DNA of 64,000 bases from Crocinitomicaceae bacterium. Its GTDB lineage: Bacteria; Bacteroidota; Bacteroidia; Flavobacteriales_D; Crocinitomicaceae. Below are positions 5,179 through 64,000 of this stretch, piece by piece (the stretch's first letter is position 1; each line of letters opens with the position of its first letter). The position numbers and the translations under genes were made by a program. Below the pieces are notes generated by a model. The model was not told where the DNA came from and made no database searches. It worked only from the letters and a program-made list of their open reading frames with translations. Location: assembly GCA_021325675.1 (NCBI GenBank), contig JAJTCM010000001.1:558001-622000 (forward strand). Reading direction: 5' to 3'.

Positions 5179-5199
5179 TTTTCTTACAATGATATAGAG

Positions 5200-49684: not shown

Positions 49685-51535
49685 ATGAGTGAAATCATCC
49701 GATTATTACCGGACCATATTGCCAACCAGATTGCTGCAGGTGAAGTTATCCAGCGGCCGGCTTCCGTTGTGAAAGAATTGGTTGAAAACGCCATTGACGC
49801 CGGTGCACAGCGTATTGACATCCACATCAAAGATGCCGGAAAAACGCTCATCCAGGTATTGGATAATGGCTGCGGGATGTCGGAAATTGACGCACGCATG
49901 GCATTTGAGCGCCACGCTACCAGCAAGCTCTCTTCTGCCGAGGATTTATTTAATCTCCGGACAAAAGGTTTTCGCGGCGAAGCTTTGGCTTCCATTGCGG
50001 CAATCGCTCATGTTATGTTAAATACACGCCAGGAAGGCCATGAATGGGGAACTTCCATTACGATTGAAGGCTCACAAATAACTGACCAGCACCCGGTTAC
50101 CTGTAAAACAGGCTCGTGTTTTGCCGTAAAAAACCTCTTTTTCAACGTCCCGGCGCGGCGTAATTTCCTGAAATCAGATGCTGTAGAGTTTGGTCATATC
50201 GAAGATGAATTCCTGCGGATTGCACTCGCCCACCCGGATTTGAAATTCAGTTTGGTACACAACGACCAGGTGATTTACCAGGTGGATGAAGCTAACCTGC
50301 GCAAGCGGATCGTGGATTTATTCGGGCGCAGCCACAATGACAGGATTGTGCCGATTGGCGAACAAACGGATATTGTCAGCATTGAAGGCTTTATCGGGAA
50401 ACCGGAATTCGCTAAAAAATCGCGCGGTGAACAGTATTTTTTTGTGAACGACCGTTTTTTCCGGGATTCTTATTTCAATCATGCTTTAACGCAGGCTTAC
50501 GATAATTTGCTCGCTTCAAGGACTTTTCCTTCGTATTTTGTGTTTTTAAAGGTCGACCCGTCTGTCATTGATGTGAACGTTCACCCGACCAAAACGGAGA
50601 TCAAATTCGAGAACGACCGCGAGATTTACGCAATCCTGAAAAGCGCTGTGCGCCAAAGTCTCGGGAAATTCAACATCTCCCCTTCCCTCGATTTTGAGCA
50701 GGAAACGAGCTTTGACCTCCCGTGGGATATGAACAATAAACCCGTTACCGAACCAACGATCCAGGTCAACCCGAATTACAATCCCTTTACTTCCACCACC
50801 ACTTCTTCAACAGGAAAAGGCGTTTCGAACGGCAATTCCCCGGCATTGAAGCAAGCCGGTTTTGGCAACAAAGAAGCCGAAAAGGTGGATTGGAACAGCT
50901 TTTATAAAATCGAAGAGGAAAACACGGAAATCCAGCAAACACTTTCTTCAAGCGAGGAAGAAATTGCTTTTGAAGAAGAGCTGAAGCAGCGGAATACCTT
51001 TTTGTTTACCGATAATTATTTGATTTCCAGTATTAAGTCCGGCTTGTTGCTCATTCATTTCCGACGGGCAAAAGAACGGATCATTTACGACGAGATCATG
51101 CAGAATTTCCTCGTGAGCCCGCTCAACGGCCAACACCTGCTTTTCCCGGTTTCAGTAGAAATGAGCGCTAAAACACTGGGTTTGTGGGAGGAAAACGTAC
51201 TGACACTGAAGCGCCTGGGCTTCGAATGGGAAAGATCCGATAAAATATTGAATTTCACTGCGGTTCCCTCCTACCTCGACAACGACCAGACGGTGAGCTG
51301 CATCGAGGCCATCCAGCAAAAACTGGAAGTGCGGCAGCTCGATAAAGGCGAAATCGCCCACGAGTTTATCCTTTCGATCGCAAAAGCGGCTTCCCGGCAA
51401 AAATACCGCTGGAACCAGGACAGCGCCAACAACCTGCTTGAATCGCTTTTCCTCTGTGCGGAACACCAGTACAGTCCCGGCGGCAAGCTCATTTTAAAGA
51501 CAATCAGCAACGACGAATTATACAAACAATTTTAA
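49685..51535 (+). CDS. mutL: DNA mismatch repair protein MutL
   Basis: A 616-residue mismatch repair ATPase. The start at 49685 gives the canonical N-terminus MSEIIRLLPDHIANQIAAGE; a longer frame to 49598 would add 29 residues of no family counterpart. The GHKL motifs are intact: ELVENAIDAGA, DNGCGMS, and TKGFRGEALASI. The PTKTEIKFE segment completes the N-terminal domain (about 1-335). A low-complexity Ser/Thr/Asn linker follows, then the C-terminal dimerisation domain (about 430-616). No DQHA-type endonuclease motif was recognised in the C-terminus. It heads a run with two rhomboids and an endonuclease gene. Confidence 0.96.
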   Translation: MSEIIRLLPDHIANQIAAGEVIQRPASVVKELVENAIDAGAQRIDIHIKDAGKTLIQVLDNGCGMSEIDARMAFERHATSKLSSAEDLFNLRTKGFRGEALASIAAIAHVMLNTRQEGHEWGTSITIEGSQITDQHPVTCKTGSCFAVKNLFFNVPARRNFLKSDAVEFGHIEDEFLRIALAHPDLKFSLVHNDQVIYQVDEANLRKRIVDLFGRSHNDRIVPIGEQTDIVSIEGFIGKPEFAKKSRGEQYFFVNDRFFRDSYFNHALTQAYDNLLASRTFPSYFVFLKVDPSVIDVNVHPTKTEIKFENDREIYAILKSAVRQSLGKFNISPSLDFEQETSFDLPWDMNNKPVTEPTIQVNPNYNPFTSTTTSSTGKGVSNGNSPALKQAGFGNKEAEKVDWNSFYKIEEENTEIQQTLSSSEEEIAFEEELKQRNTFLFTDNYLISSIKSGLLLIHFRRAKERIIYDEIMQNFLVSPLNGQHLLFPVSVEMSAKTLGLWEENVLTLKRLGFEWERSDKILNFTAVPSYLDNDQTVSCIEAIQQKLEVRQLDKGEIAHEFILSIAKAASRQKYRWNQDSANNLLESLFLCAEHQYSPGGKLILKTISNDELYKQF

Positions 51536-51538
51536 GGC

Positions 51539-52297
51539 ATGTTTTCATTCAGCAATATTCCGACAGTTACCAAAAACCTATTGATCATCAATGTTTTGTT
51601 CTACATTGCAAGTCTTGTGATGCTGCAAAACCACATTGATGCGCTTGGGATGCTGGGCGGACATTACGTCAATTCACCGCTTTTTGAGCCTTACCAGATA
51701 ATTACGCATTTTTTCATGCATTCGCCGAATGATTTCTTCCACATCCTTTTTAATATGCTGATGCTGGTGATGTTCGGCTCACACCTGGAGCGCGTTTGGG
51801 GGCCAAAACGCTTCTTCATTTTTTACATTTCCTGTGCGCTGGGCGCTTTTGCTTTGTATAACGGGATTGGTGTTTACCAGATCATGGAGCTGAAAAGCAA
51901 GCTGGCGGCGATGCACGTTGATGTGTCACATCTCAACGAACACGCGCTCCTGAAAGACGGTACCATCCTGATTTTCCCGGATGATTACCAGCTGAACGCA
52001 CTTGCGAAAGCTTACCAGATGAAGATCCTGACGCCAATGGTTGGCGCGTCGGGAGCGGTTTTCGGCATTATGGCCGCTTTCGCCTACCTCTTCCCGAATA
52101 CCGAGCTGATGCTGCTCTTCCCTCCTATTCCTGTGAAAGCCAAATACCTGATGGGAATTTATTTTGCCCTGGAAGTTTACCTCAGCTTCCGCAGCAACGT
52201 AAATGATAATGTGGCACACCTGGCGCATGTCGGCGGCGCGATCGTAGGCTTTGCACTGGTGTATTTCTGGAACAAGAAACGTAAAACTTTTTATTGA
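51539..52297 (+). CDS. Rhomboid family intramembrane serine protease
   Basis: A 252-residue six-helix membrane protein with Ser171 (GASGAVFG) and His230 (HLAHVGGAIVG) as the catalytic dyad, and HILFNM (His69, Asn72) in the second helix. Between two helices there is an inserted soluble segment of roughly 50 residues (about 112-163). It begins 3 bases after the mutL stop and is followed one base later by a second rhomboid, so both are in the mutL run. Substrates are unknown. Confidence 0.92.
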   Translation: MFSFSNIPTVTKNLLIINVLFYIASLVMLQNHIDALGMLGGHYVNSPLFEPYQIITHFFMHSPNDFFHILFNMLMLVMFGSHLERVWGPKRFFIFYISCALGAFALYNGIGVYQIMELKSKLAAMHVDVSHLNEHALLKDGTILIFPDDYQLNALAKAYQMKILTPMVGASGAVFGIMAAFAYLFPNTELMLLFPPIPVKAKYLMGIYFALEVYLSFRSNVNDNVAHLAHVGGAIVGFALVYFWNKKRKTFY

Positions 52298-52298
52298 T

Positions 52299-53216
52299 AT
52301 GCAAAGTAACCGTAGTTTTATTGACGAGCTGAAATACCAGTACCAAAGTGGTGGTATGCACATCAAACTGATTTTTGTGAATGCCGTTTTTTTCCTGCTG
52401 ATCGGGCTTTTCACCATCATTTCACGACTTTCGGCTTCACCGGAGCTGGCGGACCTGTCGCATAGTATTTTTACGCTCCAAACCAATTTTTCAGACTTCA
52501 TTTACCAGCCCTGGGGCTTGTTTACCAGTATCTTTTCACATTTCGGCATCCTGCATTTTGCTTTCAATATGCTCATGCTTTATTTCGCGGGGAGCATTTT
52601 CCGGATGTTTTTCAGCGATCAGCGCTTGCTGGCGATTTATATCCTGGGCGGGCTGGCCGGCGGGATTTTCGAAATCCTGGCACATACGCTTTTCCCGGGA
52701 CTTGCCAACCAGCCGACCGTTGTTGTAGGGGCTTCCGGTTCCATCATGGCGATTTTCATCTGCATGGCCTTTTACAAGCCGAATATTCCTGTTTCACTTT
52801 TCGGGATTATTCCCGTTCCGATTATTTACCTCGGCTTATTTTTTCTTTTAATCGACTTCATCAGCCTTGGCATGAACGACGGAACAGCCCATTTCGCCCA
52901 CCTTGGCGGTGCGATCATCGGGATGGTTGCTTCCCAGCGTCCGCATAGCCAGCACAACTTTGTTTACAGTTTTGAACGTTTGCTGCAAGCTATCGGGAAT
53001 TTTTTTCGTAGCTTCGGGAACCGGTCTTCCGTGCGTGTAGCTTATAAAAACAAGCAGGACCCGCGCCGGATGAAGGATGAAGACTTTAACCTGGATAAAA
53101 AAGCAAGACAGGAAAAGGTGAACCTGATCCTGGATAAAATTTCAAGGTCCGGCTACGAGTCGCTGAGCAAGGCGGAAAAAGAATTTTTATTTAAACAGAC
53201 AAATAAGAATGGGTGA
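52299..53216 (+). CDS. Rhomboid family intramembrane serine protease with C-terminal extension
   Basis: A 305-residue rhomboid. The ATG at 52299 is used: it follows the previous stop by one base, and the upstream start at 52251 would lie inside the neighbour. The dyad is Ser146 in GASGSIM and His201 in AHFAHLGGAIIG. After the last helix there is a polar C-terminal tail of about 90 residues (YKNKQDPRRMKDEDFNLDKKARQEK, then helical) that is cytosolic and could bind a partner. Its last 8 bases overlap the endonuclease gene. Confidence 0.92.
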   Translation: MQSNRSFIDELKYQYQSGGMHIKLIFVNAVFFLLIGLFTIISRLSASPELADLSHSIFTLQTNFSDFIYQPWGLFTSIFSHFGILHFAFNMLMLYFAGSIFRMFFSDQRLLAIYILGGLAGGIFEILAHTLFPGLANQPTVVVGASGSIMAIFICMAFYKPNIPVSLFGIIPVPIIYLGLFFLLIDFISLGMNDGTAHFAHLGGAIIGMVASQRPHSQHNFVYSFERLLQAIGNFFRSFGNRSSVRVAYKNKQDPRRMKDEDFNLDKKARQEKVNLILDKISRSGYESLSKAEKEFLFKQTNKNG

Positions 53217-54330
53217 AAAGCTGAAAAAGATCTTTAGGATTTCAGTTATATTTAAATTCCTGAGCATTTTGTGCATGGGAGGCCTTTTATTGTCTTACCT
53301 TTCCCCTTACGTCAGCCCGGCCACTTTCTGGATGATCCCGTTTTTCGGACTGGCCTACCCCATCATTATCCTGTGTACGCTTTTTTTGCTGGTCATCTGG
53401 GGCCTGGCACGTTCCCGCTGGTTTTTCATTGTCCTCGCCGTAATCCTCATTGGCGGAAGACTGCATTTCAGGCTGTACAGCCCGCCTTTCGGCAAACAAA
53501 CGGAAACATCACCGAATAAAATCAAACTGCTGAGCTACAACGTTAAAAACTTTGATGTGTATACCGTTGGCTTTGAACATGATTTTACAAACAGGAACGG
53601 AATTTTCCATTATTTAAGCGGCCAGGACGCCGATATTATTTGTTTCCAGGAGTTTTATTTCCAGGATGAAAAAAAGAAATTCCCTACGAAAGACACGCTG
53701 CATAAAATCCTGAAGGCAGAGCATTACCACGAGCGCATGAGCTTCAACCGCCGCTTCAAGAATTATTTCGGTGTGGCGATGTATTCCAAATACCCGATGA
53801 TTACACGCGGGTTTATTGAGCTGGACCAATCGTCGCGAAACTCCAACAACTTCTGTATTTTTGCCGATATCGTGAAGGGCCGCGATACCATGCGGGTTTA
53901 CAATACCCATTTTCAGTCGATCAAATTCCAGCAGGATGATTACGCTTTGTTTGGACAAAAAGAATACAGCGGAAGCGTAAAATCCGGTGTTATTGCCATG
54001 ATGCGCAAACTCCATATCGCTTACCAGAAACGGGCTGAGCAGGCGTTGAAAGTCATCGAGCACATGGAGCAATCGCCTTACGAAGTGATAATTTGCGGCG
54101 ATTTCAATGATACGCCCCTTTCTTATGTTTACAACCAGTTCTACAGCAAATTTATTGATGCTTTTCGCAATTCTTCCTCCGGTTTGGGGATCACTTACGC
54201 CGGAAAAGTACCCGCAGGAAGAATCGACTATATTTTTCATTCTGAAAACATTGAGTCCGGTAACTTTCAGATTCAATCCGAAGTTTTTTCAGATCACAAA
54301 GCAATTAGTTGTGAATTTTGGAAAAAATAA
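53209..54330 (+). CDS. Membrane-anchored endonuclease/exonuclease/phosphatase family protein
   Basis: A 373-residue protein with three N-terminal hydrophobic helices (about 10-90) followed by a metal-dependent EEP-fold domain (about 100-373). Family motifs are seen: LLSYNVKNFD, CFQEFYF, CGDFNDTPLSYVY (the DxN pair) and a terminal SDHKAIS (the catalytic Asp-His). The fold covers DNases, phosphodiesterases and lipid phosphatases, so the substrate cannot be decided; the membrane anchor makes an envelope or lipid role plausible. It overlaps the upstream rhomboid by 8 bases. Confidence 0.88.
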   Translation: MGEKLKKIFRISVIFKFLSILCMGGLLLSYLSPYVSPATFWMIPFFGLAYPIIILCTLFLLVIWGLARSRWFFIVLAVILIGGRLHFRLYSPPFGKQTETSPNKIKLLSYNVKNFDVYTVGFEHDFTNRNGIFHYLSGQDADIICFQEFYFQDEKKKFPTKDTLHKILKAEHYHERMSFNRRFKNYFGVAMYSKYPMITRGFIELDQSSRNSNNFCIFADIVKGRDTMRVYNTHFQSIKFQQDDYALFGQKEYSGSVKSGVIAMMRKLHIAYQKRAEQALKVIEHMEQSPYEVIICGDFNDTPLSYVYNQFYSKFIDAFRNSSSGLGITYAGKVPAGRIDYIFHSENIESGNFQIQSEVFSDHKAISCEFWKK

Positions 54331-54340
54331 TTTATTTTTG
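54309..54340 (+). promoter_or_regulatory. Full Bacteroidota-type promoter TTG-N21-TATTTTTG
   Basis: TTG at 54309-54311 and TATTTTTG at 54333-54340 are separated by 21 bases, within the range reported for the phylum. It lies inside the end of the preceding gene and drives the lipoprotein gene, whose ATG is 25 bases downstream. Confidence 0.55.
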
Positions 54341-54365
54341 CTTAAAAACACATAACGCCGATCGC

Positions 54366-54827
54366 ATGAAATACTTAATCTTTCTTACACTTACTACTTG
54401 TATCCTGTTTTCCTGTACCGAAGCACCCAAAGTAACTTCTGACAAGGAAGATGAAGAATTGAGCGAAAACCCGATTGTCGGTAAATGGAAATTGCAATCC
54501 CACCGCAAAAAAGAAGGAAACGGCTCTGAGATCGATGTCAAACACCAGCCAACCGAAGTTATTTTATCCATTATGGAAGGTGGCTACTTCGTTATTTATG
54601 ATACGTTTACCGATCCGCGCTTTAACCAGAAAGGATTCAACCGCATTTCGGAACGCAGTAAAGGCCAGTGGGAATTCATAGACAATAAACGTCTCATTCT
54701 CCATCATAATTTCGACGATTCGACGCGAACAGAGGAAATGAGCATCACGACGCTCAATAAAAACACCCTGGTCACGAAAGGCGGCGACAAAAAATCAAAC
54801 ATCTACAAAACCTACGAAGGATACTAA
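54366..54827 (+). CDS. Lipocalin-like hypothetical lipoprotein
   Basis: A 153-residue lipoprotein. The signal peptide YLIFLTLTTCILFSC gives a lipid-modified Cys at about 17. The mature part starts with an acidic linker, then the pattern IVGKWKLQSHRKKEG, repeated beta strands and a GQWEFIDNKRLILHH region, which recalls lipocalin-like (DUF4923/DUF5004-type) domains of Bacteroidota. The ATG at 54366 is used because an upstream TTG at 54318 would overlap the previous gene and hide the signal peptide. It is 2 bases from the Sua5-like gene, so they share a transcript. Confidence 0.75.
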   Translation: MKYLIFLTLTTCILFSCTEAPKVTSDKEDEELSENPIVGKWKLQSHRKKEGNGSEIDVKHQPTEVILSIMEGGYFVIYDTFTDPRFNQKGFNRISERSKGQWEFIDNKRLILHHNFDDSTRTEEMSITTLNKNTLVTKGGDKKSNIYKTYEGY

Positions 54828-54829
54828 AC

Positions 54830-55447
54830 ATGCTCATAGAAATCAACCCCTACAACATAAACCGCCGCAGCATCGAAGAAGTTGTTCATTCCCTGCGCAA
54901 AGGAAATATCATTATTTTCCCGACGGATTCGGTTTACAATGTAGGCTGTGATTTATTCAATAAGAAAGCTTTGCAGGAACTTGCCCGCTTCAAGGACGTA
55001 AAGCTCAACAAAGCCCGCTTTTCCATTATTTGCTCCGACCTGAGCGATATATCGAATTATACCAAACCCATCGACCGTCCGACCTTTAAATTATTGAAAC
55101 ATCATTTGCCCGGTCCTTTTACCTTCATTTTAAATGCGACCAACGAGGTTCAGAAAATCTTTGATTCCAACCGGAAAAAAATCGGGATCAGGATTCCGGA
55201 CAATAATATCTTAAAGGCAATTACGGAAGAACTGGGCAACCCGCTGGCTACTACTTCCCTGCATGACGAGGAAGACCATATCCTGGATTATTTTACGGAT
55301 CCGAATGAAATGTACCAGCGCTACGAAGACCAGGTAAGTATTGTAATCGACGGCGGAACCGGTCACCTGGAGCCAACAACAGTAGTGGATTGTACCGAAG
55401 GTGACGCCAAAATCATACGCCAGGGTGCGGGAAAATTAGACTTATGA
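54830..55447 (+). CDS. Sua5/YciO/YrdC family protein (probable threonylcarbamoyl-AMP synthase)
   Basis: A 205-residue YrdC-fold protein. Family features include LRKGNIIIFPTDSVYNVGCD, the KARFSIIC segment, LLKHHLPGPFTFILNA and a RIPDNNI motif. True Sua5/TsaC makes threonylcarbamoyl-AMP for the universal t6A modification at tRNA position 37; YciO relatives have the same fold but weak activity. The NVGCD variant (in place of YGL) is closer to YciO. It starts 2 bases after the lipoprotein gene, and its stop overlaps the next start by 4 bases. Confidence 0.85.
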   Translation: MLIEINPYNINRRSIEEVVHSLRKGNIIIFPTDSVYNVGCDLFNKKALQELARFKDVKLNKARFSIICSDLSDISNYTKPIDRPTFKLLKHHLPGPFTFILNATNEVQKIFDSNRKKIGIRIPDNNILKAITEELGNPLATTSLHDEEDHILDYFTDPNEMYQRYEDQVSIVIDGGTGHLEPTTVVDCTEGDAKIIRQGAGKLDL

Positions 55448-56022
55448 TCGGGATTATCAATTGCGGAAGCCAGAAAGTACCCTACATCGAGCAAGCAGTC
55501 GATGCGGTGTGTGATTACGAAACTTTTGGTATGTTCGACCTGCTGAAACGGGATTTGAACCATTACGACGGGATCATTATTTCCGGCGCGCCGATTTTGC
55601 TGACAGAAGTTGACCTCCAGCCCTATGTTGATAATTTCGCCTGGATCAAAAGCTATAAAAAACCGCTGCTGGGGATTTGCTTCGGTCACCAAATCCTGGG
55701 GCTCGTTCACGGGGCGTTCGTGGCGCGCCAGAAAGACGACCGCGACTGGCAGACGATTGAAAGCTACAACGATTCACCGCTTTTTGACAAGCTGCCCCAC
55801 GAATTTCAAATGACGGAAGACCACTGCGAATGTGTTTCCGTGCCCAAAGACTTCCAGCTGATTGCCGGTTCAGACGCCTGCGTCAACGAAGCGATGCAGC
55901 ACGACAGCAAACCGTTTTACGGTGTTCAGTTTCACCCGGAAACCTCAGGAACACAGGGTTTTTTGCTTATTGAAAACTTTGTTAATATTTGTTTGAAAGA
56001 AAAGGCCGGAACTCAAAATTAA
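55444..56022 (+). CDS. Class I glutamine amidotransferase domain protein (GMP synthase glutaminase-like)
   Basis: A stand-alone 192-residue glutaminase fold. The nucleophile cysteine is in LLGICFGHQILG (about residue 79) and the His-Glu pair is in GVQFHPETSG. It lacks a synthetase partner domain, so it may serve an unknown acceptor enzyme or act alone like PuuD/GuaA-type small amidotransferases. It begins inside the YrdC-like gene stop (ATGA overlap), suggesting translational coupling. Confidence 0.88.
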   Translation: MIGIINCGSQKVPYIEQAVDAVCDYETFGMFDLLKRDLNHYDGIIISGAPILLTEVDLQPYVDNFAWIKSYKKPLLGICFGHQILGLVHGAFVARQKDDRDWQTIESYNDSPLFDKLPHEFQMTEDHCECVSVPKDFQLIAGSDACVNEAMQHDSKPFYGVQFHPETSGTQGFLLIENFVNICLKEKAGTQN

Positions 56023-56038
56023 TTCCGATTTTCGCCTT

Positions 56039-57283
56039 ATGACAATGAATCGCATCTGGATCGGATTTTTCCTGGTCTCTATCCTTGTTGCCGCTATCAA
56101 ATTGGCATTCTGGCAGGACTTCTTTATTTTCGAGCGCATGGTTGAATCCTTGTTTGAAGGAGCGAGCACTGCTTTTACGCTCGCTTTGAGCCTGACAGGA
56201 GCGCTTTGTTTCTGGCTGGGTTTTATGCGGATCGGCGAAAAAGGCGGCGCTATAGCGATCCTTGCCCGTTTGATCTCCCCCTTCTTTTCACATATTTTTC
56301 CTGGAATTCCTAAAAAGCATCCCGCAATCGGTTCAATCATGATGAATTTTTCGGCCAACATGCTTGGTTTAGATAATTCGGCAACTCCCCTTGGCTTGAA
56401 AGCCATGAAAGAAATGCAGGAGCTGAACCCTGAGCCTGAAAAGGCAACCAACGCACAAATCATGTTCCTGGCCCTCAATACTGCCGGGTTAACAATTATT
56501 CCCGTCGGTGTACTCAGCATTTTGTCGCAATACGGATCATCCGACCCTACCGGTGTGTTCATCCCGATTTTAATCACCACTTTTTCTTCTGCCCTATTTG
56601 CCCTCTTTTTAGTGGCTTTCAAACAACGCATCAACTTGTTTAAGCCGGTAGTTATGGCTTATTTGTTCGCTGGTATTGCTTTCGTAACAAGCCTTTTGCT
56701 GGTAACTGTATGGTATCCCCAGCATGCAAAAGTTATCTCGAGTGTCTTCGGAAACAGCATCCTGTTGGGCATTATCCTGCTCTTTTTATTGCTCGCAATG
56801 AAACGGAAAGTGGACGTTTATGATGAATTCATTGAAGGCGCAAAAGAAGGTTTCCAGGTAGCTATTTCCATCGTTCCTTTTGTTGTCGGAATGCTCTGTG
56901 CCATTAGCTTATTCAGGTCATCCGGTTGTCTCGACGCGATGATAGACGGGATCAGGTGGCTGTGTCTCCAGGCCGGGTTGTTAAATACGCAATTTGTTGA
57001 TGCCTTGCCGGTCGGTTTCATGAAGCCTTTCTCCGGTTCAGGCGCGCGCGCCATGTTCCAGGACGTCATCCAAAACCCGGAGCTGGGCGGCGTGGATTCT
57101 TTTGTCAGCAAAATTGCAGCTACGATGCAGGGCGGAACGGAAACAACTTTCTATACGCTGGCCGTTTATTTCGGTGCGGTAAGGGTCAAAAACACGCGCT
57201 ATACGGCGGGAGTTGGCTTACTCGTTGATATATTCGGGATTATCGCGGCAATTATAGTATCCTATATTTTTTATCCGCATTAA
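56039..57283 (+). CDS. SpmA/SpmB-like fused nucleoside-recognition (Gate domain) membrane protein
   Basis: A 414-residue polytopic membrane protein. The N-terminal half matches SpmA (LGLDNSATPLGLKAMKEMQEL, with MMNFSANMLGLDNSATP) and the C-terminal half matches SpmB (PFSGSGARAMFQDVI, then GGTETTFYTLAVYFGAV), both containing Gate domains. In Bacillus the separate proteins affect spore core dehydration; fused copies occur widely in non-sporulating Bacteroidota, where the role is unknown. About ten helices are visible. ATG 56039 or 56045 could be the start. Confidence 0.9.
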   Translation: MTMNRIWIGFFLVSILVAAIKLAFWQDFFIFERMVESLFEGASTAFTLALSLTGALCFWLGFMRIGEKGGAIAILARLISPFFSHIFPGIPKKHPAIGSIMMNFSANMLGLDNSATPLGLKAMKEMQELNPEPEKATNAQIMFLALNTAGLTIIPVGVLSILSQYGSSDPTGVFIPILITTFSSALFALFLVAFKQRINLFKPVVMAYLFAGIAFVTSLLLVTVWYPQHAKVISSVFGNSILLGIILLFLLLAMKRKVDVYDEFIEGAKEGFQVAISIVPFVVGMLCAISLFRSSGCLDAMIDGIRWLCLQAGLLNTQFVDALPVGFMKPFSGSGARAMFQDVIQNPELGGVDSFVSKIAATMQGGTETTFYTLAVYFGAVRVKNTRYTAGVGLLVDIFGIIAAIIVSYIFYPH

Positions 57284-57312
57284 ATTTCGTAACTTACACT
57301 TAAAACGAAGAC

Positions 57313-57789
57313 GTGTTTTTCAAGAAAAAAAATAAACAGCAGGCACAGCCGGCCCGGGTCCAAAAAGTCGGGATCAAGCCTTTGGACTATCACCCCAAGA
57401 TTATCCTCGCATGGGCTAAAGCGCTGGAAGGCAATAAAGAAATTACTTCCTGGCTGAAGGACAATGGTTACGAAGAATTGGTATTTGCCAATGCGGCGAT
57501 CTGGCTCAAAAACGATGCGCGCGACTGGCTGATGAATAACGGCTATCCGCATTTGATGGCTATGATCCACGCTGCCGAAGGGGATGAAAAAGCGCAAAAA
57601 TGGCTTTTAAGCAACGATTTCGAGATTTTATACCATATCGCCCTCGCTGTTGAAAATGAGCAGGAAAGCTGGAAATGGCTGAAGCTGAACGCTACCCAGG
57701 ATTTGTTTATCCTCGCCCAAACCATTAAGATGATCAAAGACAGGATAGAAGAAAACCACAACGATGTGCATTCGTTCGGCAGAGACTGA
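57313..57789 (+). CDS. Helical protein of exact 25-residue W-L repeats, unknown function
   Basis: A 158-residue protein I cannot assign. It starts at GTG with a lysine-rich stretch (FFKKKNKQQ). From residue 31 to 140 it is a tandem array of 25-residue units with the consensus WLxxN(x4)L. The Trp-Leu pairs fall at 47-48, 72-73, 97-98 and 122-123, and the Asn at 51, 76, 101 and 126. The units are WLKDNGYEEL, WLMNNGYPHL, WLLSNDFEIL and WLKLNATQDL, each followed by an alanine-rich helix. This suggests a small alpha-solenoid for protein binding. It lies 29 bases behind the SpmAB-like gene. Confidence 0.75.
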   Translation: MFFKKKNKQQAQPARVQKVGIKPLDYHPKIILAWAKALEGNKEITSWLKDNGYEELVFANAAIWLKNDARDWLMNNGYPHLMAMIHAAEGDEKAQKWLLSNDFEILYHIALAVENEQESWKWLKLNATQDLFILAQTIKMIKDRIEENHNDVHSFGRD

Positions 57790-57830
57790 TTAATGTGCTA
57801 ATTATTTTTTCGTATGATCTCTTTAACTCA

Positions 57831-57876
57831 TTAGCATATTATCACATTAAAAATTAGCATATTATCACATTAAAAA
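57831..57876 (+). repeat. Perfect 23-bp tandem duplication abutting a flavoprotein gene
   Basis: The unit starting TTAGCATATTATCACATT is present twice in a row (57831-57853 and 57854-57876) without a mismatch. A related inverted word (TAATGTGCTAAT) sits at 57792-57803. The second copy runs into the first codons of the next gene, where a start codon would be expected. Confidence 0.9.
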
Positions 57877-59093
57877 AAATAGCGATCATTGGCGGCGGTG
57901 CAGCGGGATATTTTGCTGCGCTGAGTGCGAAAGAACATTTCCCGGAGGCCCAGGTCACGATATACGAAAAATCCAATAAGGTACTGGCGAAAGTTAAAAT
58001 TTCAGGCGGCGGACGCTGCAACGTTACCCACGCGTGCTATGACAATATTGCGCTTTCGAAATTTTATCCGAGGGGTGAAAAACATCTTAAGTGGGCTTTT
58101 CAACAATTCAATACACAATCCACGGTCGATTGGTTTCACAAACGGGGAGTTTTACTGGAAACTCTTTCTGATAATTGCATCTTTCCGAAATCAAACAGCT
58201 CACAAACGATTATCGATTGTTTTCAGAACGAAGCCCGAAAATTGGGGATACAGACTTTAATTCAAACTTCAATTAATAGTATTAAAATACTTGATAATCA
58301 AAATTTTGAATTAATATCAACTGAACAAACTTTTACTGCCGACCGCGTAATTATTACTTCAGGTGGCACCCCCAAGCTTTCGGGACTGAAGTGGATTGAG
58401 GATTTGGGCCACAAAGTCGTTGAGCCCCTGCCCTCCTTGTATACTTTTAACATGCCCGGAAACCCGGTGTGTGAATTGATGGGCATTGTGAACGAAAACA
58501 CGACGGTCAAAATCGAAGGAACGAAACTGATCGCTGACGGGCCTTTACTCGTTACCCACTGGGGAATGAGCGGTCCTGCCGTTTTGAAGCTTTCCGCCTG
58601 GGGAGCACGGATCCTGGCTGAAAAGCAGTATAAATTCAACGCGCTTGTGAATTGGCTGCACACGCAAAAAGATTTTCAGGCGCAGGAAAAGCTGGAGCAA
58701 TTCGCCGGTGAAAACCCTGAAAAACTGGTTTCCACATACAATCCATTTGGTTTGAGCAAGCGTTTGTGGCTTTTCCTGGTTAATAAGAGTGAAATCCACG
58801 AAGAAACGCGCTGGAAAAACCTCGGGCGCAAAAACCAGAACAGGCTGGTGAACACCCTGGTGAACGATTGCTACCCGGTAAACGGAAAAACGACGTTCAA
58901 GGAAGAGTTTGTTACAGCGGGCGGCGTGGACCTGTCAGATGTTGATTTCAATACAATGCAGAGCAAAGTCGTGCAAGGGCTCTTTTTTGCCGGTGAAATC
59001 CTTGATATCGACGGGATCACGGGTGGTTTCAACTTCCAGGCAGCCTGGACAACAGGATGGATCGCGGGGAAAAATTCAGGAAATAATCTGTAG
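57870..59093 (+). CDS. HI0933/BaiN-family NAD(P)/FAD-dependent oxidoreductase, start codon lost or non-standard
   Basis: A flavoprotein of about 407 residues. The frame is open from 57858 and reads KKIAIIGGGAAGYFAA at the N-terminus, then KISGGGRCNVTH, GGTPKLSGL, and the C-terminal GVDLSDVDFNTM and GEILDIDGITGGFNFQAAW motifs. This is a complete family length. However, no ATG, GTG or TTG occurs in frame upstream of 58242, which is deep inside the protein. By alignment the initiator should be at 57870, where the codon is TTA, the last bases of a 23-bp duplication; ATT at 57861, ATC at 57864 or ATA at 57879 are the alternatives. Function in the family is unclear (BaiN reduces bile-acid derivatives). 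Confidence 0.8.
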   Translation, partial: LKKIAIIGGGAAGYFAALSAKEHFPEAQVTIYEKSNKVLAKVKISGGGRCNVTHACYDNIALSKFYPRGEKHLKWAFQQFNTQSTVDWFHKRGVLLETLSDNCIFPKSNSSQTIIDCFQNEARKLGIQTLIQTSINSIKILDNQNFELISTEQTFTADRVIITSGGTPKLSGLKWIEDLGHKVVEPLPSLYTFNMPGNPVCELMGIVNENTTVKIEGTKLIADGPLLVTHWGMSGPAVLKLSAWGARILAEKQYKFNALVNWLHTQKDFQAQEKLEQFAGENPEKLVSTYNPFGLSKRLWLFLVNKSEIHEETRWKNLGRKNQNRLVNTLVNDCYPVNGKTTFKEEFVTAGGVDLSDVDFNTMQSKVVQGLFFAGEILDIDGITGGFNFQAAWTTGWIAGKNSGNNL

Positions 59094-59109
59094 CTTAAAG
59101 CTTCAGATT
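59085..59109. terminator. Bidirectional hairpin between two convergent genes
   Basis: AATCTGTAGCTT (59085-59096) and AAGCTTCAGATT (59098-59109) form a near-perfect inverted repeat with one mismatch and almost no loop, flanked by T- and A-rich runs. It contains the flavoprotein stop codon and directly abuts the helicase stop codon. Confidence 0.55.
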
Positions 59110-60621
59110 TTATTCGTCATCGAGGTTCTGACGCAGCTTATGACGCAATTGGCGGTTATAAGTCTCCAATAAAAACTTGAAATAGTTCGGTGTACTTTTG
59201 GAAATACATTTCGTATATTGCTTCAGGCGATATTCAATGTGTTCCTGCAGCGCCAGCTGGTATTCAATAGCTTCAAAAAAGTCCTTGCTGGCTTCCATAA
59301 TCACATCATAGTGGTTTTCCATGGAAAGCTCAACGGCATTTTTGCCTTTTTCCCCTTTGTCGAGACAAGCATAATACACTTCTTTCATTTCGAACTTATC
59401 GAGCAGGTCCGTGTTCAGTTTTTCTTTCAGGAAACGGTTGAATTCGAACTCGATCTCAAATTCGATGTCGTCGCCTTCAGATAAACGGGATTCCAGGAAA
59501 CGGTCCGGGAAACGGAAAGCGTCCTGCCAGTTGATATAATCCTGCCAGTAACCGAAGCGGCGCACGTTGTTTCCGAGGTCGATCACCTTAAACTTGCTTT
59601 TGTTTGGCAATTTACGGGAACCACGGCCGATCATCTGGTGGTAAAGCGTTAGTGAACGGGTTGCGCGGTTGAGGATAATCGTTTCTACGGTAGGCTCATC
59701 GAAACCGGTGGTCAAAATCCCAACGGAAGTGAGGATCGCGTCTTTGGTTTCCTTAAACCATCTCAAAACGGCTTTCCGGTCTTTGTCACTGAAAGTCGAA
59801 TCCAGGTGCTTGATCTTGTACCCTCTTTTCTTAAACGTTTCTTCCACTTGCAGGGAAGTTTCAATTCCCGAGTTGAAGATCAGGGTTTTGTCGCCAACCG
59901 CCACTTCTTCGTAAGCGAAAAGCAGTTTTTCCTGCATGAAATAATTACCGTAGACCAATTCCGAGCTGCTCACTGTAAAATCACCGTTAGAACCGATTTT
60001 CAGCCCGTGGAGGTTAACATCGTATGTAAACGTTTCGGCATCAGAAAGATAACCGTTATCAATCAGGCCGGAAATGCTCTCTCCTACCAGTAATTTATTG
60101 TAATTGTCGTTCAGCGGCAAAGCCTTGTTAGAGCTTAGCGGCGTAGCTGTTACTCCCAGGATATTCGTGTTGACGTAGTATTGAAAAATCTTGCGGAAAC
60201 TGTTGTAATGCGCCTCATCCACAATCACCAAACCGACATCCTGGATAAAGTTCTCATTATCACGCAGGCGGTTGTTGAGTGTTTCCACCATGGCAATATA
60301 ACATGGGTAATCTTCGTCATCAGACAGCTTTTTCACATCGCTGCTGATTACTTTATTCGGAACGCTGATGGCCGAAAGCTGCTTTGAAGTCTGTACGGAA
60401 AGCTCGATCCGGTGTGTAAGGATCAACACTTTTTTACCGAATTTCTCAATATAGCGGCGTGAAATTTCCGAGAAAATAACGGTTTTGCCACCGCCTGTCG
60501 GAAGTTGGTATAACAGGTTGAAATTACTGTCGTTGGACTCGAATTCGTTTAAAATGGATGCTACGGTTTTGTCCTGGAACGGGTACAGGGCTTTAGCTTC
60601 ATACAGGTCAATATCTAGCAT
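59110..60621 (-). CDS. DEAD/DEAH-box (superfamily 2) helicase
   Basis: A 503-residue SF2 ATPase. Motif I is LPTGGGKTVIF (about 41-51), motif II VDEAHYN, motif III-like GVTATPLSS, and the helicase C domain has LTTGFDEPTVETIILNR and HQMIGRGSRKLPNKSKF (motif VI). This set resembles the UvrB/type I restriction R-like ResIII group. The final 130 residues are helical and have no recognised nuclease motif. It is a single gene that converges on the flavoprotein and diverges from the barrel protein. A role in nucleic-acid repair or RNA unwinding cannot be decided; no methylase or specificity subunit lies nearby to suggest restriction. Confidence 0.9.
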   Translation of the reverse strand: MLDIDLYEAKALYPFQDKTVASILNEFESNDSNFNLLYQLPTGGGKTVIFSEISRRYIEKFGKKVLILTHRIELSVQTSKQLSAISVPNKVISSDVKKLSDDEDYPCYIAMVETLNNRLRDNENFIQDVGLVIVDEAHYNSFRKIFQYYVNTNILGVTATPLSSNKALPLNDNYNKLLVGESISGLIDNGYLSDAETFTYDVNLHGLKIGSNGDFTVSSSELVYGNYFMQEKLLFAYEEVAVGDKTLIFNSGIETSLQVEETFKKRGYKIKHLDSTFSDKDRKAVLRWFKETKDAILTSVGILTTGFDEPTVETIILNRATRSLTLYHQMIGRGSRKLPNKSKFKVIDLGNNVRRFGYWQDYINWQDAFRFPDRFLESRLSEGDDIEFEIEFEFNRFLKEKLNTDLLDKFEMKEVYYACLDKGEKGKNAVELSMENHYDVIMEASKDFFEAIEYQLALQEHIEYRLKQYTKCISKSTPNYFKFLLETYNRQLRHKLRQNLDDE

Positions 60622-60726
60622 CTTCTGGTTCTGGATTTGGGGCTACAAAATTACACTTCTTTTAAGGAAAAACAAAGCGTTGCGCACTTTATTTCTGCTT
60701 TTTAACGTAATTTATAAGGTATTTCT

Positions 60727-60734
60727 TATTTTTG
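60727..60734 (+). promoter_or_regulatory. TAnnTTTG-type -7 element, probably leaderless
   Basis: TATTTTTG ends 5 bases before the ATG at 60740. A transcript would start at or beside the initiation codon. Confidence 0.45.
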
Positions 60735-60739
60735 GATAT

Positions 60740-61900
60740 ATGAATGCTGCTTTCAGACCATGCTTGCTGTTTTTCGCCCTGTTGCCGCTTGTAACTTTCG
60801 GACAGGCAACGGCCCTGGATAGTTTGATGCGAAGCAGGGAAAATGCATCTGCTTTCAGGGATATGCTGGAGCTTGTCAGCGAGCCGGCTACGGTTTCCGG
60901 GGCACCGCTGGATTACCATTCAGGAATTAAAAAACCTTATATTTTCAACGGTGATTTTCAGCTTGCTTTAACAATCGGCGGCCCGGACTATGCAACGGGA
61001 AGAAAACACAAATGGGTCCACGCGCTGCAGTTTATTCCCAGCACACGCGTCAGGCTTTTTCAAAACGACACAAGCTGGCAGGACAAATCCAAGCCGGTAC
61101 GTACGCCCAGTTTTTACCCGCGCCTGTATTATTTTTTCAGTCCTGAGAAGCTTTGGAACACAGAAAACAAGCGAACGCTTTACTTTGGGCTTGGCGCTGC
61201 TCATCATTCCAACGGCCAGGACGGAACCGAATTCGTGGATTTTACCGATACGGTGAATATTTACAACGGGAGCTTTAGCGAAAGTCTGATTATCCATGCG
61301 CTTATTGGGGGGAACCTGCATTTTAAAACCCGGCTGATAAACAACAACGCTCAAAAAAGCCGCAACGAGCGTGTAATCCGCAAAAAATCACAGCGCAGGA
61401 CAATCTTTTCCGTGAAAGAAGCTTATGAAAAGAGCAATTCCCTGAACTGGCGCTTGCTTTATGAGTATCATCCCTCCTATTTTGCCAATCAAAAATTCCA
61501 TCAGCATGGCGTTTATGGCGGAAACCGTATTATTCTCAATCTCACCTGGATCAACTCACGCTTTTGGGAAAAGCATTTTTACCAGGGCACAACTTTAATG
61601 ATCACTGAAAAATCCAACATGGAGAATTTGCGCTTAAGCCTGAACCTGGAATATATTACGGATTTAAGCTACAACTCAGGAGGTTATGAAAATTTGCAAA
61701 AAATCCCTTTAGGAATGACGAGCAAGCGACTGAATGCAGCGCTCACAGCATACAAGCCCGTGCCAAGCACCCGCTTTTTGGCTTTGTTCGGTCAACTCGC
61801 CTACTATGGATCCGATAATTACAATATCTATTTCCAGAAATCGTTCTTCCAGGCCCGTTTGGGGGCAGCTTTTGCGTTTTTTGAGTACCGGAAACTTTAA
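60740..61900 (+). CDS. Outer-membrane protein with a phospholipase-A1-like H-x-S-N-G motif
   Basis: A 386-residue exported protein. The ATG at 60740 begins a good signal peptide (FRPCLLFFALLPLVTFG); the longer frame starting at 60485 runs through the helicase promoter region. The body alternates aromatic and polar residues like a beta barrel. The string LGAAHHSNGQDG places His155 and Ser157 in the same H-x-S-N-G arrangement as the catalytic site of E. coli outer-membrane phospholipase A (HQSNGRS). This points to a PldA-like enzyme, though the remaining similarity is weak by eye. It is divergent from the helicase. Confidence 0.6.
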   Translation: MNAAFRPCLLFFALLPLVTFGQATALDSLMRSRENASAFRDMLELVSEPATVSGAPLDYHSGIKKPYIFNGDFQLALTIGGPDYATGRKHKWVHALQFIPSTRVRLFQNDTSWQDKSKPVRTPSFYPRLYYFFSPEKLWNTENKRTLYFGLGAAHHSNGQDGTEFVDFTDTVNIYNGSFSESLIIHALIGGNLHFKTRLINNNAQKSRNERVIRKKSQRRTIFSVKEAYEKSNSLNWRLLYEYHPSYFANQKFHQHGVYGGNRIILNLTWINSRFWEKHFYQGTTLMITEKSNMENLRLSLNLEYITDLSYNSGGYENLQKIPLGMTSKRLNAALTAYKPVPSTRFLALFGQLAYYGSDNYNIYFQKSFFQARLGAAFAFFEYRKL

Positions 61901-61931
61901 TTCCCGGTCTTTAAATTGAAATTTCTCAAGC

Positions 61932-62810
61932 TTATTTCACGATCTGCGAATTGTTCAAAGAGCCAAAGATCCCGAAGCCGCCTTCTATATTTGAATACAC
62001 TTTCACCGGTTCGATGAAGGGGCTGTCTTCCTGGCCCATGAGCACTGAACGGTAATAGAGATACGTTTCTTTATTCATGGTGATCAGCCTGTAAGTATAG
62101 ATCGGGTCTTCGGCAGGCGTCATTCCTTTATAGGTCATGAATTCGATTTCCAGCTGCTTTTGTTCCCCGTCAAAAAGCTCATCTGTGAACAGCAGGTCAT
62201 CGAAAGTTGGTTTATCAGATGAAAGCGGGTCTGCACCCTGGCCGCTGGTTACTTCATCATTGGACTGGAAAGTCATCTGGTAGAAATAATCATAGAGCGG
62301 ATCAGCGTAAAACAGGCGCAGCATGTAGTAATTCTCTCCTGCCGGATCATTCCATTTCAGGACAGCCCTTTTGTGAAGCGACCCGTCTTTAGAAAAACCG
62401 GATGTATCAACCGAAGTAAGCGTAACGTTTGGAACGGTTGTAATTTCACTGCTGACAGACGGGTATTCCGCATGGCTCACCTCGATTTTGTAGCGTGTTC
62501 CCGGAGCTGTCACAAAAGGAAATTCATATACATTGTCATACGTAGACTGGTTCATGGTAAAAACCTCACCCGTGCTCACGTTCGTCACTTTCATGATGGC
62601 GCCGGTTTCAATGTATTTGCTCTCTTCTCCTTCATTGCTCAGGAAAAAAGTAGTACGTTCCAGGTAGACTTTAAACGTGGAATCGTTTTGCTCAATGGCG
62701 TTCACCACGAGCAGCGGGTCTTTACCTTCCCCTTTAAACTCGAGCTCTTTCTGGCAGGAAAACAGGAAAGCAAAGCCAAGCAATATTCCGAAGCATCTAT
62801 TTGTTTTCAT
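61932..62810 (-). CDS. DUF4249 lipoprotein
   Basis: A 292-residue surface or periplasmic lipoprotein. The signal peptide ends in LFSC (Cys19) followed by QKELEF. The domain layout agrees with DUF4249 (LLVVNAIEQNDSTFKVYLERT at the N-terminus, WNDPAGENYYMLRLFY in the middle, and a C-terminal NIEGGFGIFGSL motif). Such proteins are regularly encoded next to TonB-dependent receptors and probably help capture the ligand. Its start overlaps the 3' end of the receptor gene by 14 bases. Confidence 0.88.
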   Translation of the reverse strand: MKTNRCFGILLGFAFLFSCQKELEFKGEGKDPLLVVNAIEQNDSTFKVYLERTTFFLSNEGEESKYIETGAIMKVTNVSTGEVFTMNQSTYDNVYEFPFVTAPGTRYKIEVSHAEYPSVSSEITTVPNVTLTSVDTSGFSKDGSLHKRAVLKWNDPAGENYYMLRLFYADPLYDYFYQMTFQSNDEVTSGQGADPLSSDKPTFDDLLFTDELFDGEQKQLEIEFMTYKGMTPAEDPIYTYRLITMNKETYLYYRSVLMGQEDSPFIEPVKVYSNIEGGFGIFGSLNNSQIVK

Positions 62811-64000
62811 TTTCAGTATTTTTAGTTTCTTTATTTTTCTTTACTTTTTCAAAGTCAAACTGGAATTTCCAGCTGATCGACGGAATTAACGGGAAAAGCG
62901 AAACCTGCATCAAAGCCGGGTCACCTGCGTTATTAATTCCCCTGTAGATCATGAACGGATTTTGACGGTTGTAGACATTGTAGACTGAGAATGAGATCAC
63001 GGAATGTCCCCATTTTTTGTCTTTCTTGTAATTCGCTCCTACATCCATCCGGTGGTAAGCCGGCATCCGGTAGCCGTTCAATTGATCGAAATTAGTGATC
63101 GAATTTCCATAATAATACGTGAAAAGCCCCGGTGCAACGGAATAGGTCTGCGATCCAAGCGTAACGGCATTTCCAGTCCCGAAAACGAAAACCATGCCCA
63201 CATCCCAGTAATCGTCGATCTGGTAAGTCATTGCCAGGCTGACATCGTGGCGACGGTCATAGCGGTAAAAGAATTTCTCGCCAAAATTAAGGTTGTCAAA
63301 CTGGCGCTCTGCCCAGCTCAGTGTGTAGCCCAGCCAGCCGGTTAATTTGCCTTTTTTCTTTTCCAGGAAGAATTCTCCCCCGTAGCTCCAGCCCTGCCCT
63401 GTTTCAACGCGGGACTGCCAGTCGTCGTTAATCGAAATAAAATCAGCGCCTTCCTTATACTGGATCAGGTTATTCATTTTTTTGTAGTAGCCCTCAACGG
63501 AAAAGTTGTAGCCTTTGCTCAATTCCCTGTAATAACCTAAGCTGACCTGGTTGGCCAATACAGGCTTGATTTTATCGGTTGCAGGAACCCATAAGTCCGT
63601 TGGCAGCCCGATCCCGCTGTTTGACAGCAAATGGAGGAACTGTGCCATGCGGCTCACACCAAACTTAACGCTTGATTTTTCGTCCAGCATAAAATTAGAG
63701 CTAAAGCGCGGCTGCAAAGCCTGGAGCACTTTTCCGTTCGTAAAGAAAATGGAATGGTGCAAACCGTAATTCAGCTTTAGCCTTTCGCTGATCTTGTGGT
63801 CATTTTCAAAATAGAGGTTCACTTCATGCGAATACTGAACATTGGAGCCAAAAGACGTGTCAATTGCTACTCCCTGGGCGTCTACGTCGATGTAAGAAAC
63901 ACCCGGCGTAAAGGTGTGGTAGGTTTCGGCAACCCCGAATTTGATGTTGTGGTTCGGGTTCGGGAAATACGTAAAGTCGGATTTCAGTCCCCAGTCGGTA
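62797..64000 (-). CDS. TonB-dependent receptor, C-terminal part (5' end outside window)
   Basis: The C-terminal portion of an outer-membrane receptor barrel, at least 400 residues in the window. The frame is open from 64000 through 63822 (TDWGLKSDFTYFPNPNHNIK before the first internal GTG), so the gene continues beyond the window. Barrel strands with aromatic girdles are visible (FSVEGYYKKMNNLIQYKEG, GWLGYTLSWAERQF, HRMDVGANYKKDKKWGHSVISFSVYNVYNRQNPF). The last strand, SISWKFQFDFEK, is followed by a short polar tail. Together with the DUF4249 lipoprotein it forms a two-gene uptake system whose ligand is unknown. Confidence 0.92.
   Translation of the reverse strand, partial: TDWGLKSDFTYFPNPNHNIKFGVAETYHTFTPGVSYIDVDAQGVAIDTSFGSNVQYSHEVNLYFENDHKISERLKLNYGLHHSIFFTNGKVLQALQPRFSSNFMLDEKSSVKFGVSRMAQFLHLLSNSGIGLPTDLWVPATDKIKPVLANQVSLGYYRELSKGYNFSVEGYYKKMNNLIQYKEGADFISINDDWQSRVETGQGWSYGGEFFLEKKKGKLTGWLGYTLSWAERQFDNLNFGEKFFYRYDRRHDVSLAMTYQIDDYWDVGMVFVFGTGNAVTLGSQTYSVAPGLFTYYYGNSITNFDQLNGYRMPAYHRMDVGANYKKDKKWGHSVISFSVYNVYNRQNPFMIYRGINNAGDPALMQVSLFPLIPSISWKFQFDFEKVKKNKETKNTENENK

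Follow-up and report, generated by a model that had tools for sequence, protein, structure and literature searches.

Genes at the locus

The window, by which we mean the whole stretch of 64,000 nucleotides analysed here (Crocinitomicaceae bacterium, contig JAJTCM010000001.1, positions 558,001 to 622,000), carries a gene for a 158-residue protein built of short repeats, referred to below as the repeat gene. The gene order is Sua5/YciO-type and GATase genes, a Gate gene, the repeat gene and an HI0933-like gene (Table 1). The reading frame of the repeat gene contains no internal stop, and its start (MFFKKK or MWFKKK) is aligned with the same start in many homologues. The Lys-rich tail at the N-terminus is short or missing in some relatives; 16 of 77 family members lack it, and 53 of the 77 have Phe or Trp at positions 2–5 of a tail of at least 15 residues.

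The frame of the downstream HI0933-like FAD-protein gene is intact over residues 22–405 of a 408-residue relative, with 48% identity. From the in-frame stop codon at 57855 up to the TTG at 58242, no ATG, GTG or TTG occurs in this frame; loss of the start or use of a rare start codon is possible.

Table 1. Features of the repeat-gene locus in window coordinates, with one gene of a related locus. Helices of the repeat protein were assigned by DSSP on the predicted model.
Feature	Position	Strand	Remarks
Gate-domain protein gene (nucleoside recognition, PF07670)	56039–57283	+	29 bases before the GTG start of the repeat gene
Repeat gene (158-residue alpha-helical repeat protein, predicted)	57313–57789	+	GTG start, TGA stop
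N-terminal tail, residues 1–25, Lys-rich	57313–57387	+	residues 1–18 predicted disordered (pLDDT < 50)
Unit 1, W47-L48	57394–57462	+	predicted helices 28–38 and 42–50
Unit 2, W72-L73 (99/99)	57472–57537	+	predicted helices 54–63 and 67–75
Unit 3, W97-L98 (99/99)	57547–57612	+	predicted helices 79–88 and 92–100
Unit 4, W122-L123	57622–57690	+	predicted helices 104–113 and 117–126
Long C-terminal helix	57697–57777	+	predicted helix 129–155
Perfect 23-base tandem duplication	57830–57875		5' end of the HI0933-like gene
HI0933-like FAD-protein gene	57858–59093	+	downstream of the repeat gene
DUF4159-cluster gene in locus L084	about 4068–5197	-	adjoins a near-group repeat gene on its upstream side; coordinates of L084

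The 25-residue period

An earlier sequence-only reading had described Trp-Leu pairs at residues 47, 72, 97 and 122, each with Asn four and Leu nine residues after the Trp. This description is exact: the pattern WLxxNxxxxL starts at all four positions. When the residues were shuffled 50,000 times the pattern was absent from 49,741 of the shuffled sequences, occurred once in 259 and never occurred more than once. In comparisons of the protein with itself at lags of 5 to 79, lag 25 gave the best mean BLOSUM62 score, with 23 identities among 133 pairs; lags 75 and 50 came next, and none of 5,000 shuffles reached either the lag-25 score or the 25/50/75 score. A periodicity arising by chance is ruled out by the shuffles and the lag-25 statistics. 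A fifth WL, at residue 64, stands outside the 25-residue register.

The strict period claimed for this one protein extends to its relatives. Two alignments were used, A1 with 31 near members (window protein included) and A3 with 16 divergent members. Lag 25 was the best of lags 12 to 44 in all 31 and all 16, thus in 47 of 47 members tested, and in each of them at most 3 of 300 shuffles reached it.

Conservation was counted over 99 near members, again including the window protein. W72, L73, W97 and L98 are invariant, W47 is kept in 87 (Tyr in 8 and Phe in 4) and W122 in 95. The Asn at +4 is present in 89 and 93 members in units 1 and 2 and is weaker in units 3 and 4 (35 and 65), and the Leu at +9 is present in 96, 90 and 93 members in the first three units and in just 31 in the fourth. 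Since the Asn and Leu are less strict in the last units, the W-L pair is the true signature. With all four units pooled, the Trp is conserved at 95% and the Leu at 96%; counting unit positions from 0, Ala at position 8 reaches 88%, Gly at 11 57% and Asn at 22 71%. The unit can be written roughly as PHLMAMINAAEGNExAxKWLxxNGY or, as a consensus of the 99 near members, approximately as P-H/E-L-x-A-x-x-x-A-I/A-E-G-N-E-x-A-x-x-W-L-x-x-N-G-Y/F.

Several polar positions are conserved in the same alignment, namely E55 (100%), E89 (98%), R70 (88%) and H80 (77%). The C-terminal helix carries the near-group motif K142-D-x-I-E146-(x3)-N150-D151-x-H153, in which K142 is found in 98 of the 99 members, E146 in 95, N150 in 92, D151 in 99 and H153 in 97. 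None of the 16 divergent members shows the D-x-H, and the partner of the protein, if it has one, may therefore differ between the groups.

Homologues with varying numbers of units, which the sequence-only reading had anticipated, did not appear. The core (residues 26–135 of the window protein) measures 109–113 residues in all 99 near members: 110 in 82, 109 in 10, 111 in 6 and 113 in 1. The 16 divergent members align across the same units with small indels.

Predicted structure and fold searches

AlphaFold2 was run on the whole protein with 36 sequences (the window protein and 35 of 36 related loci) and on the core, residues 25–133, with 34 sequences. The whole-protein model has nine helices in the 25-residue register (mean pLDDT 88.3, pTM 0.80), and the core model has the same helices within its span at pLDDT 96.1 and a pTM of 0.87, which fits a single packed domain. 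Loops between the predicted helices are mostly three residues long, and neither model contains a beta-strand. From the sequence a small alpha-solenoid had been suggested, with structure prediction named as a check for a repeated fold. The prediction returned regular helical hairpins, arranged as four helix-loop-helix units in the 25-residue register and a long C-terminal helix. On the strength of these models a helical-hairpin array is very probable; the four-unit alpha-solenoid is a predicted arrangement, and the helix 129–155 is probably its cap.

No Foldseek match reached E ≤ 0.001, whether in the PDB (best E 0.71 for the whole model, to a designed armadillo protein, and 3.1 for the core) or among the viral models of BFVD (best E 1.1). 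The best VIA-align match of the whole model was the designed PPR protein 6een (Z 5.7, rmsd 6.6 over 103 residues) and that of the core, for which 54 chains were compared, was a designed PPR protein (Z 5.5, rmsd 6.9 over 104), both within the background that the tool states. The best VIA-align matches overall, comprising the PPR design, Rap and other quorum-sensor proteins, all have Z < 6 and rmsd of 4 to 7. Solved ankyrin arrays were not prominent in the Foldseek and VIA-align lists, which is no evidence against a relationship with ankyrin. Thus no close solved fold was found, a result that does not by itself demonstrate a novel fold.

Search of PDB sequences gave best E-values of 0.0078 with the protein, 0.22 with A1 and 0.6 with A3, the first of these to a synthetic PPR-DYW protein. 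Such matches lead to the question of whether the product is a nucleic-acid-binding or enzymatic protein in which the helical repeat is incidental. The VIA-align match to designed PPR RNA binders (6een), a second one to AhpD (1gu9, Z 4.5, rmsd 4.1 over 99) and the PPR-DYW sequence match could all be read in this way, and D151-x-H153, nearly invariant in the near group, could bind a metal. However, VIA-align describes Z values in this range as common when the model is helical, a PPR unit has 35 residues, and the D-x-H does not appear in the 16 divergent members, so that we regard an incidental repeat as highly improbable.

Comparison with known families

The window protein could be assigned to no curated family in the libraries searched. 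Pfam had no model that reached its cut-off for the protein itself, none did so for 30 near relatives among matches to E 0.01, and NCBIfam gave no model for the protein. When matches to E 1 were taken for the 31 members of A1, weak Pfam matches were scattered across 33 families, among them LNS2_PITM1-3 in 10 members, Peptidase_M24_C in 6 and Ank_4 in 2; the strongest was to Peptidase_M24_C (E 7.2e-05), its 23.1 bits falling short of the cut-off of 28.9. The 16 members of A3 gave weak Pfam matches over 21 families (best E 0.0063), and 31 members of a further alignment, A5, gave weak NCBIfam matches over 28 families, of which TQXA_dom was the strongest (5 members, best E 0.0015). These scattered weak matches are taken as chance.

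The statement that no known family has such a signature stands in part. No Pfam cut-off was reached, but another 25-residue tandem repeat with a different motif is in print, namely PARCEL/DUF285 (TIGR02167), whose tandem units are canonically 25 residues long (PMC2996958). The same paper names a Flavobacteria sequence and describes the PARCEL motif as sporadic, variable in number and horizontally distributed (PMC2996958). The repeat protein shares the 25-residue tandem unit, but its number of units is constant and almost every genome of its order has it. Models of DUF285/TIGR02167 did not match the window protein up to E 10 in Pfam or NCBIfam, and DUF285 did not match any of 30 near relatives in Pfam up to E 0.01. 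To E 1, DUF285/TIGR02167 was absent among the Pfam matches listed for the 47 members (25 of 33 families in the case of A1) and among the NCBIfam matches listed for 31 members (25 of 28 families). Neither the repeat protein nor the W-L signature was found among the matches listed in a search of the literature, most subscription papers being outside its scope.

The predicted tandem helical hairpins bear a likeness to TPR and PPR proteins, the best VIA-align matches being the PPR design, Rap and other quorum-sensor proteins, and the predicted alpha-solenoid is of the same kind as HEAT and Armadillo proteins, a designed armadillo being the first Foldseek match. The units of these families are longer. 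TPR units have 34 residues and PPR units 35, with longer helices, and HEAT and Armadillo units have about 37–47, compared with a period of 25 here. Profiles for hhalign were built from the genomes of relatives and are small. The TPR profile (10 sequences) gave probabilities of 0.1% with A1 and 0.6% with A3, no significant link, and together with the period of 25 in 47 of 47 members this bears out the earlier view that the protein is unlike TPR. The HEAT profile, a poor alignment of 7 sequences after one of eight had been dropped as misread, gave 0.2% with both A1 and A3.

Ankyrin is one of the nearest known families. Its unit has about 33 residues, with a beta-hairpin between units, and its arrays serve as interaction scaffolds. 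The repeat protein might then be an ankyrin-type array without the beta-hairpin finger (33 minus 8 being 25) that binds its partners as ankyrin arrays do. By a weak alignment, the two have in common a short helix-turn-helix unit in which Ala, Gly and (L/W)L..(N/A)G positions are similarly placed, and the core A-x-x-x-x-G-N-x-x-A-x-x-W-L-x-x-N-G resembles the consensus of the ankyrin helix pair. In hhalign, A3 and ankyrin align in the register that would be expected (LLHYSIN-KRDDALKELMKKN over ALMYAVLNQNPELVSALKKAG), with a score of 19.7, the best of 20 permuted controls scoring 14.4. Ank_4 was matched weakly by 3 of the 47 members, two near ones (best E 0.0093, with 16.7 bits where the cut-off is 22.7) and one divergent (E 0.099), and giant-virus ankyrin/F-box proteins made up 8 of the best 50 viral fold matches.

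However, the hhalign probability with the ankyrin profile (9 sequences) is 1.2% for A1 and 4.3% for A3, no significant link, while a permuted A3 control reached 6.7% against TPR. The Pfam cut-off was not reached, LNS2_PITM1-3 and Peptidase_M24_C match more members than Ank_4 does at similar E-values, and the viral fold matches all have E > 1. The unit is of 25 residues rather than 33, and the predicted models are free of strands. We consider an ankyrin-type array unlikely. The repeats constitute a real conserved family, apparently an unnamed one.

Distribution

By protein search the window's own genome has one significant locus; profile A3 finds the window gene at E 1.2e-22, and the next match (E 0.1) has an internal stop. 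The gene is present in 57 of 59 relatives by protein search, including all 49 of those with completeness of 90% or more and contamination of 5% or less, and named carriers include Lishizhenia tianjinensis, Fluviicola and Crocinitomicaceae MAGs. At the level of the order 284 of 299 genomes have it. With the same quality limits the count is 217 of 224, a match being absent in 7. In the class, profile A1 recovered it in 78 of 247 genomes, many at E 1e-8 to 1e-25. Draws across the phylum yielded it in 3 of 198 genomes by protein search and 3 of 392 by profile A5, the same three genomes in both cases, the window's own included; in view of the class figure, these draws contain few of the bacterial families that carry the gene.

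The divergent proteins of A3 are real relatives, since A3 recovers the window gene and hhalign aligns A1 with A3 at 99.8% over 121 columns, with 20 column-permuted controls at 1.3% or less. The wide presence of the gene suggests vertical inheritance. Carriage by mobile elements or phages was considered and rejected: the plasmid search gave a single match, to an AAA ATPase (E 0.7), the phage search gave none, and no viral relative was confirmed. A search of PHROGs gave a best E of 0.073.

In high-GC genomes of one bacterial family (f58) the repeat protein stands at the end of long open frames of 485, 523 and 652 residues (loci L132, L131 and L130, respectively). Domain fusions were rejected here, the translation upstream of the repeats looking non-coding by eye.

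Gene neighbourhoods

In the window's family 85 loci were taken, 8 duplicate proteins were dropped and 2 loci lay at contig ends, leaving 75; family membership of related loci was assigned from names and identity. In 68 of these 75 distinct loci the gene next to the repeat gene on its upstream side is a Gate gene of the same strand, and the remaining 7 have another same-strand gene (4) or an opposite-strand gene (3) in that place. The gap between Gate and repeat genes has a median of 2 bases and a range of -62 to 133, with 61 of 68 between -70 and 20, figures in which the upstream stop codon is counted and the first possible start is taken, so that true overlaps are smaller. This close association might mean that the product is a dedicated accessory protein of the Gate membrane protein, e.g., an assembly or gating subunit. 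Other families with close homologues, however, have a different upstream gene: methylmalonyl-CoA mutase (Pfam, one cluster member), RluD-like or MOSC-like genes (named by eye) and others. As the Gate link was found in the window's family alone, the transporter is unlikely to be the partner in general, and a dedicated accessory role is improbable.

The divergent members have another neighbourhood. In several families (loci L148, L190, L191, L194, L197 and others) the gene order is CarbopepD_reg, TonB-receptor-like, TfoX-like, repeat protein, 80-residue protein and DUF4159. Loci of families f67, f84, f55 and f87 have the TonB-receptor-like gene (profile d1) upstream of the repeat gene, and in L190 the TonB-receptor-like gene has a Plug domain above the Pfam cut-off. 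The gene for the 80-residue protein (d2), which starts MRIIxxIPHPKI... and has no Pfam match in L190, directly follows the repeat gene in 7 of 9 f67 and 2 of 2 f84 loci. The TfoX-like label is a weak one: in L136 the match scores 22.5 bits where the cut-off is 30.1, and in L190 the protein has no Pfam family.

This order would suggest that the repeat protein belongs to an envelope-related unit, and two observations in the near group point the same way. In L084 (family f5) the repeat gene is immediately preceded, on the same strand, by a gene of the DUF4159 cluster (profile match at E 5.6e-111), which we see as a distant echo of the divergent order, and in L067 and L071 (family f13) the genes directly upstream, of 793 and 807 residues, have by eye a carboxypeptidase-regulatory-like start. 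Nevertheless, profiles d1–d4, which together cover the TonB-like, 80-residue, TfoX-like and CarbopepD_reg clusters, had no match in the near-group loci L001–L135 or in window positions 50001–64000, and the DUF4159 cluster in L084 is the only divergent neighbour to recur in the near group. The window's own genome has the 80-residue gene, unlinked, about 400 kb away (C1:216728 compared with C1:615313 for the repeat gene). That gene occurs in 55 of 149 class genomes, the window's own included; of these genomes, 28 carry the repeat gene as well, and the other 27 are outside the repeat-positive class set, some of them perhaps unsearched for the repeat gene. Together with the weak TfoX name, these results make membership of an envelope-related unit quite unlikely.

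In family f81 the repeat gene is found behind an SPFH/Band_7_1 and GYF gene or behind the zinc-ribbon gene that adjoins it. Two loci of this family, L145 and L146, have two adjacent copies of the repeat gene, which lie behind the SPFH/Band_7_1 and GYF gene and the zinc-ribbon gene. A member of the HI0933-like cluster lies near the repeat gene in L137, L146 and L149. Because the neighbours differ between families, no single neighbour explains the repeat gene.

Discussion

We propose, with a probability of roughly 55%, that the product works as an adaptor, inherited vertically, which contacts a partner protein through one face of the helix stack and the conserved C-terminal helix. From its single locus it would be made as a small alpha-solenoid of four 25-residue helix-loop-helix units closed by the long C-terminal helix. 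The Trp and Leu of each second helix would pack the stack together with the small Ala positions, and the N-G-Y/F and E-G-N stretches would form the two tight turns. The binding face could be composed of the conserved polar residues E55, E89, R70, H80, K142, E146, N150, D151 and H153. The protein is probably cytoplasmic, no signal peptide being seen by eye, and we might speculate that its basic aromatic N-terminus (M-F/W-F-K-K-K) touches the membrane. A possible partner in the window's family is the nucleoside-recognition membrane protein encoded upstream, or something close to that protein.

A more far-reaching view, which we hold tentatively and at slightly less than even odds, is that this repeat family, in which the unit is exactly 25 residues long and the unit count does not change, had an origin in Bacteroidia independent of ankyrin, TPR and HEAT. 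It would then have become a near-universal housekeeping adaptor in one order, and would rank with the most compact helical-hairpin solenoids in nature, no solved structure being closely related to it.

Helical units used in repeat-protein design are usually longer than 25 residues. Should a solved structure bear out the predicted fold, a helical unit of 25 residues whose core hardly varies would be a useful starting point for such design. For the order itself, the repeat gene marks a gap in annotation: it is near-universal there, and it has neither a curated family in the libraries searched nor a close solved fold.
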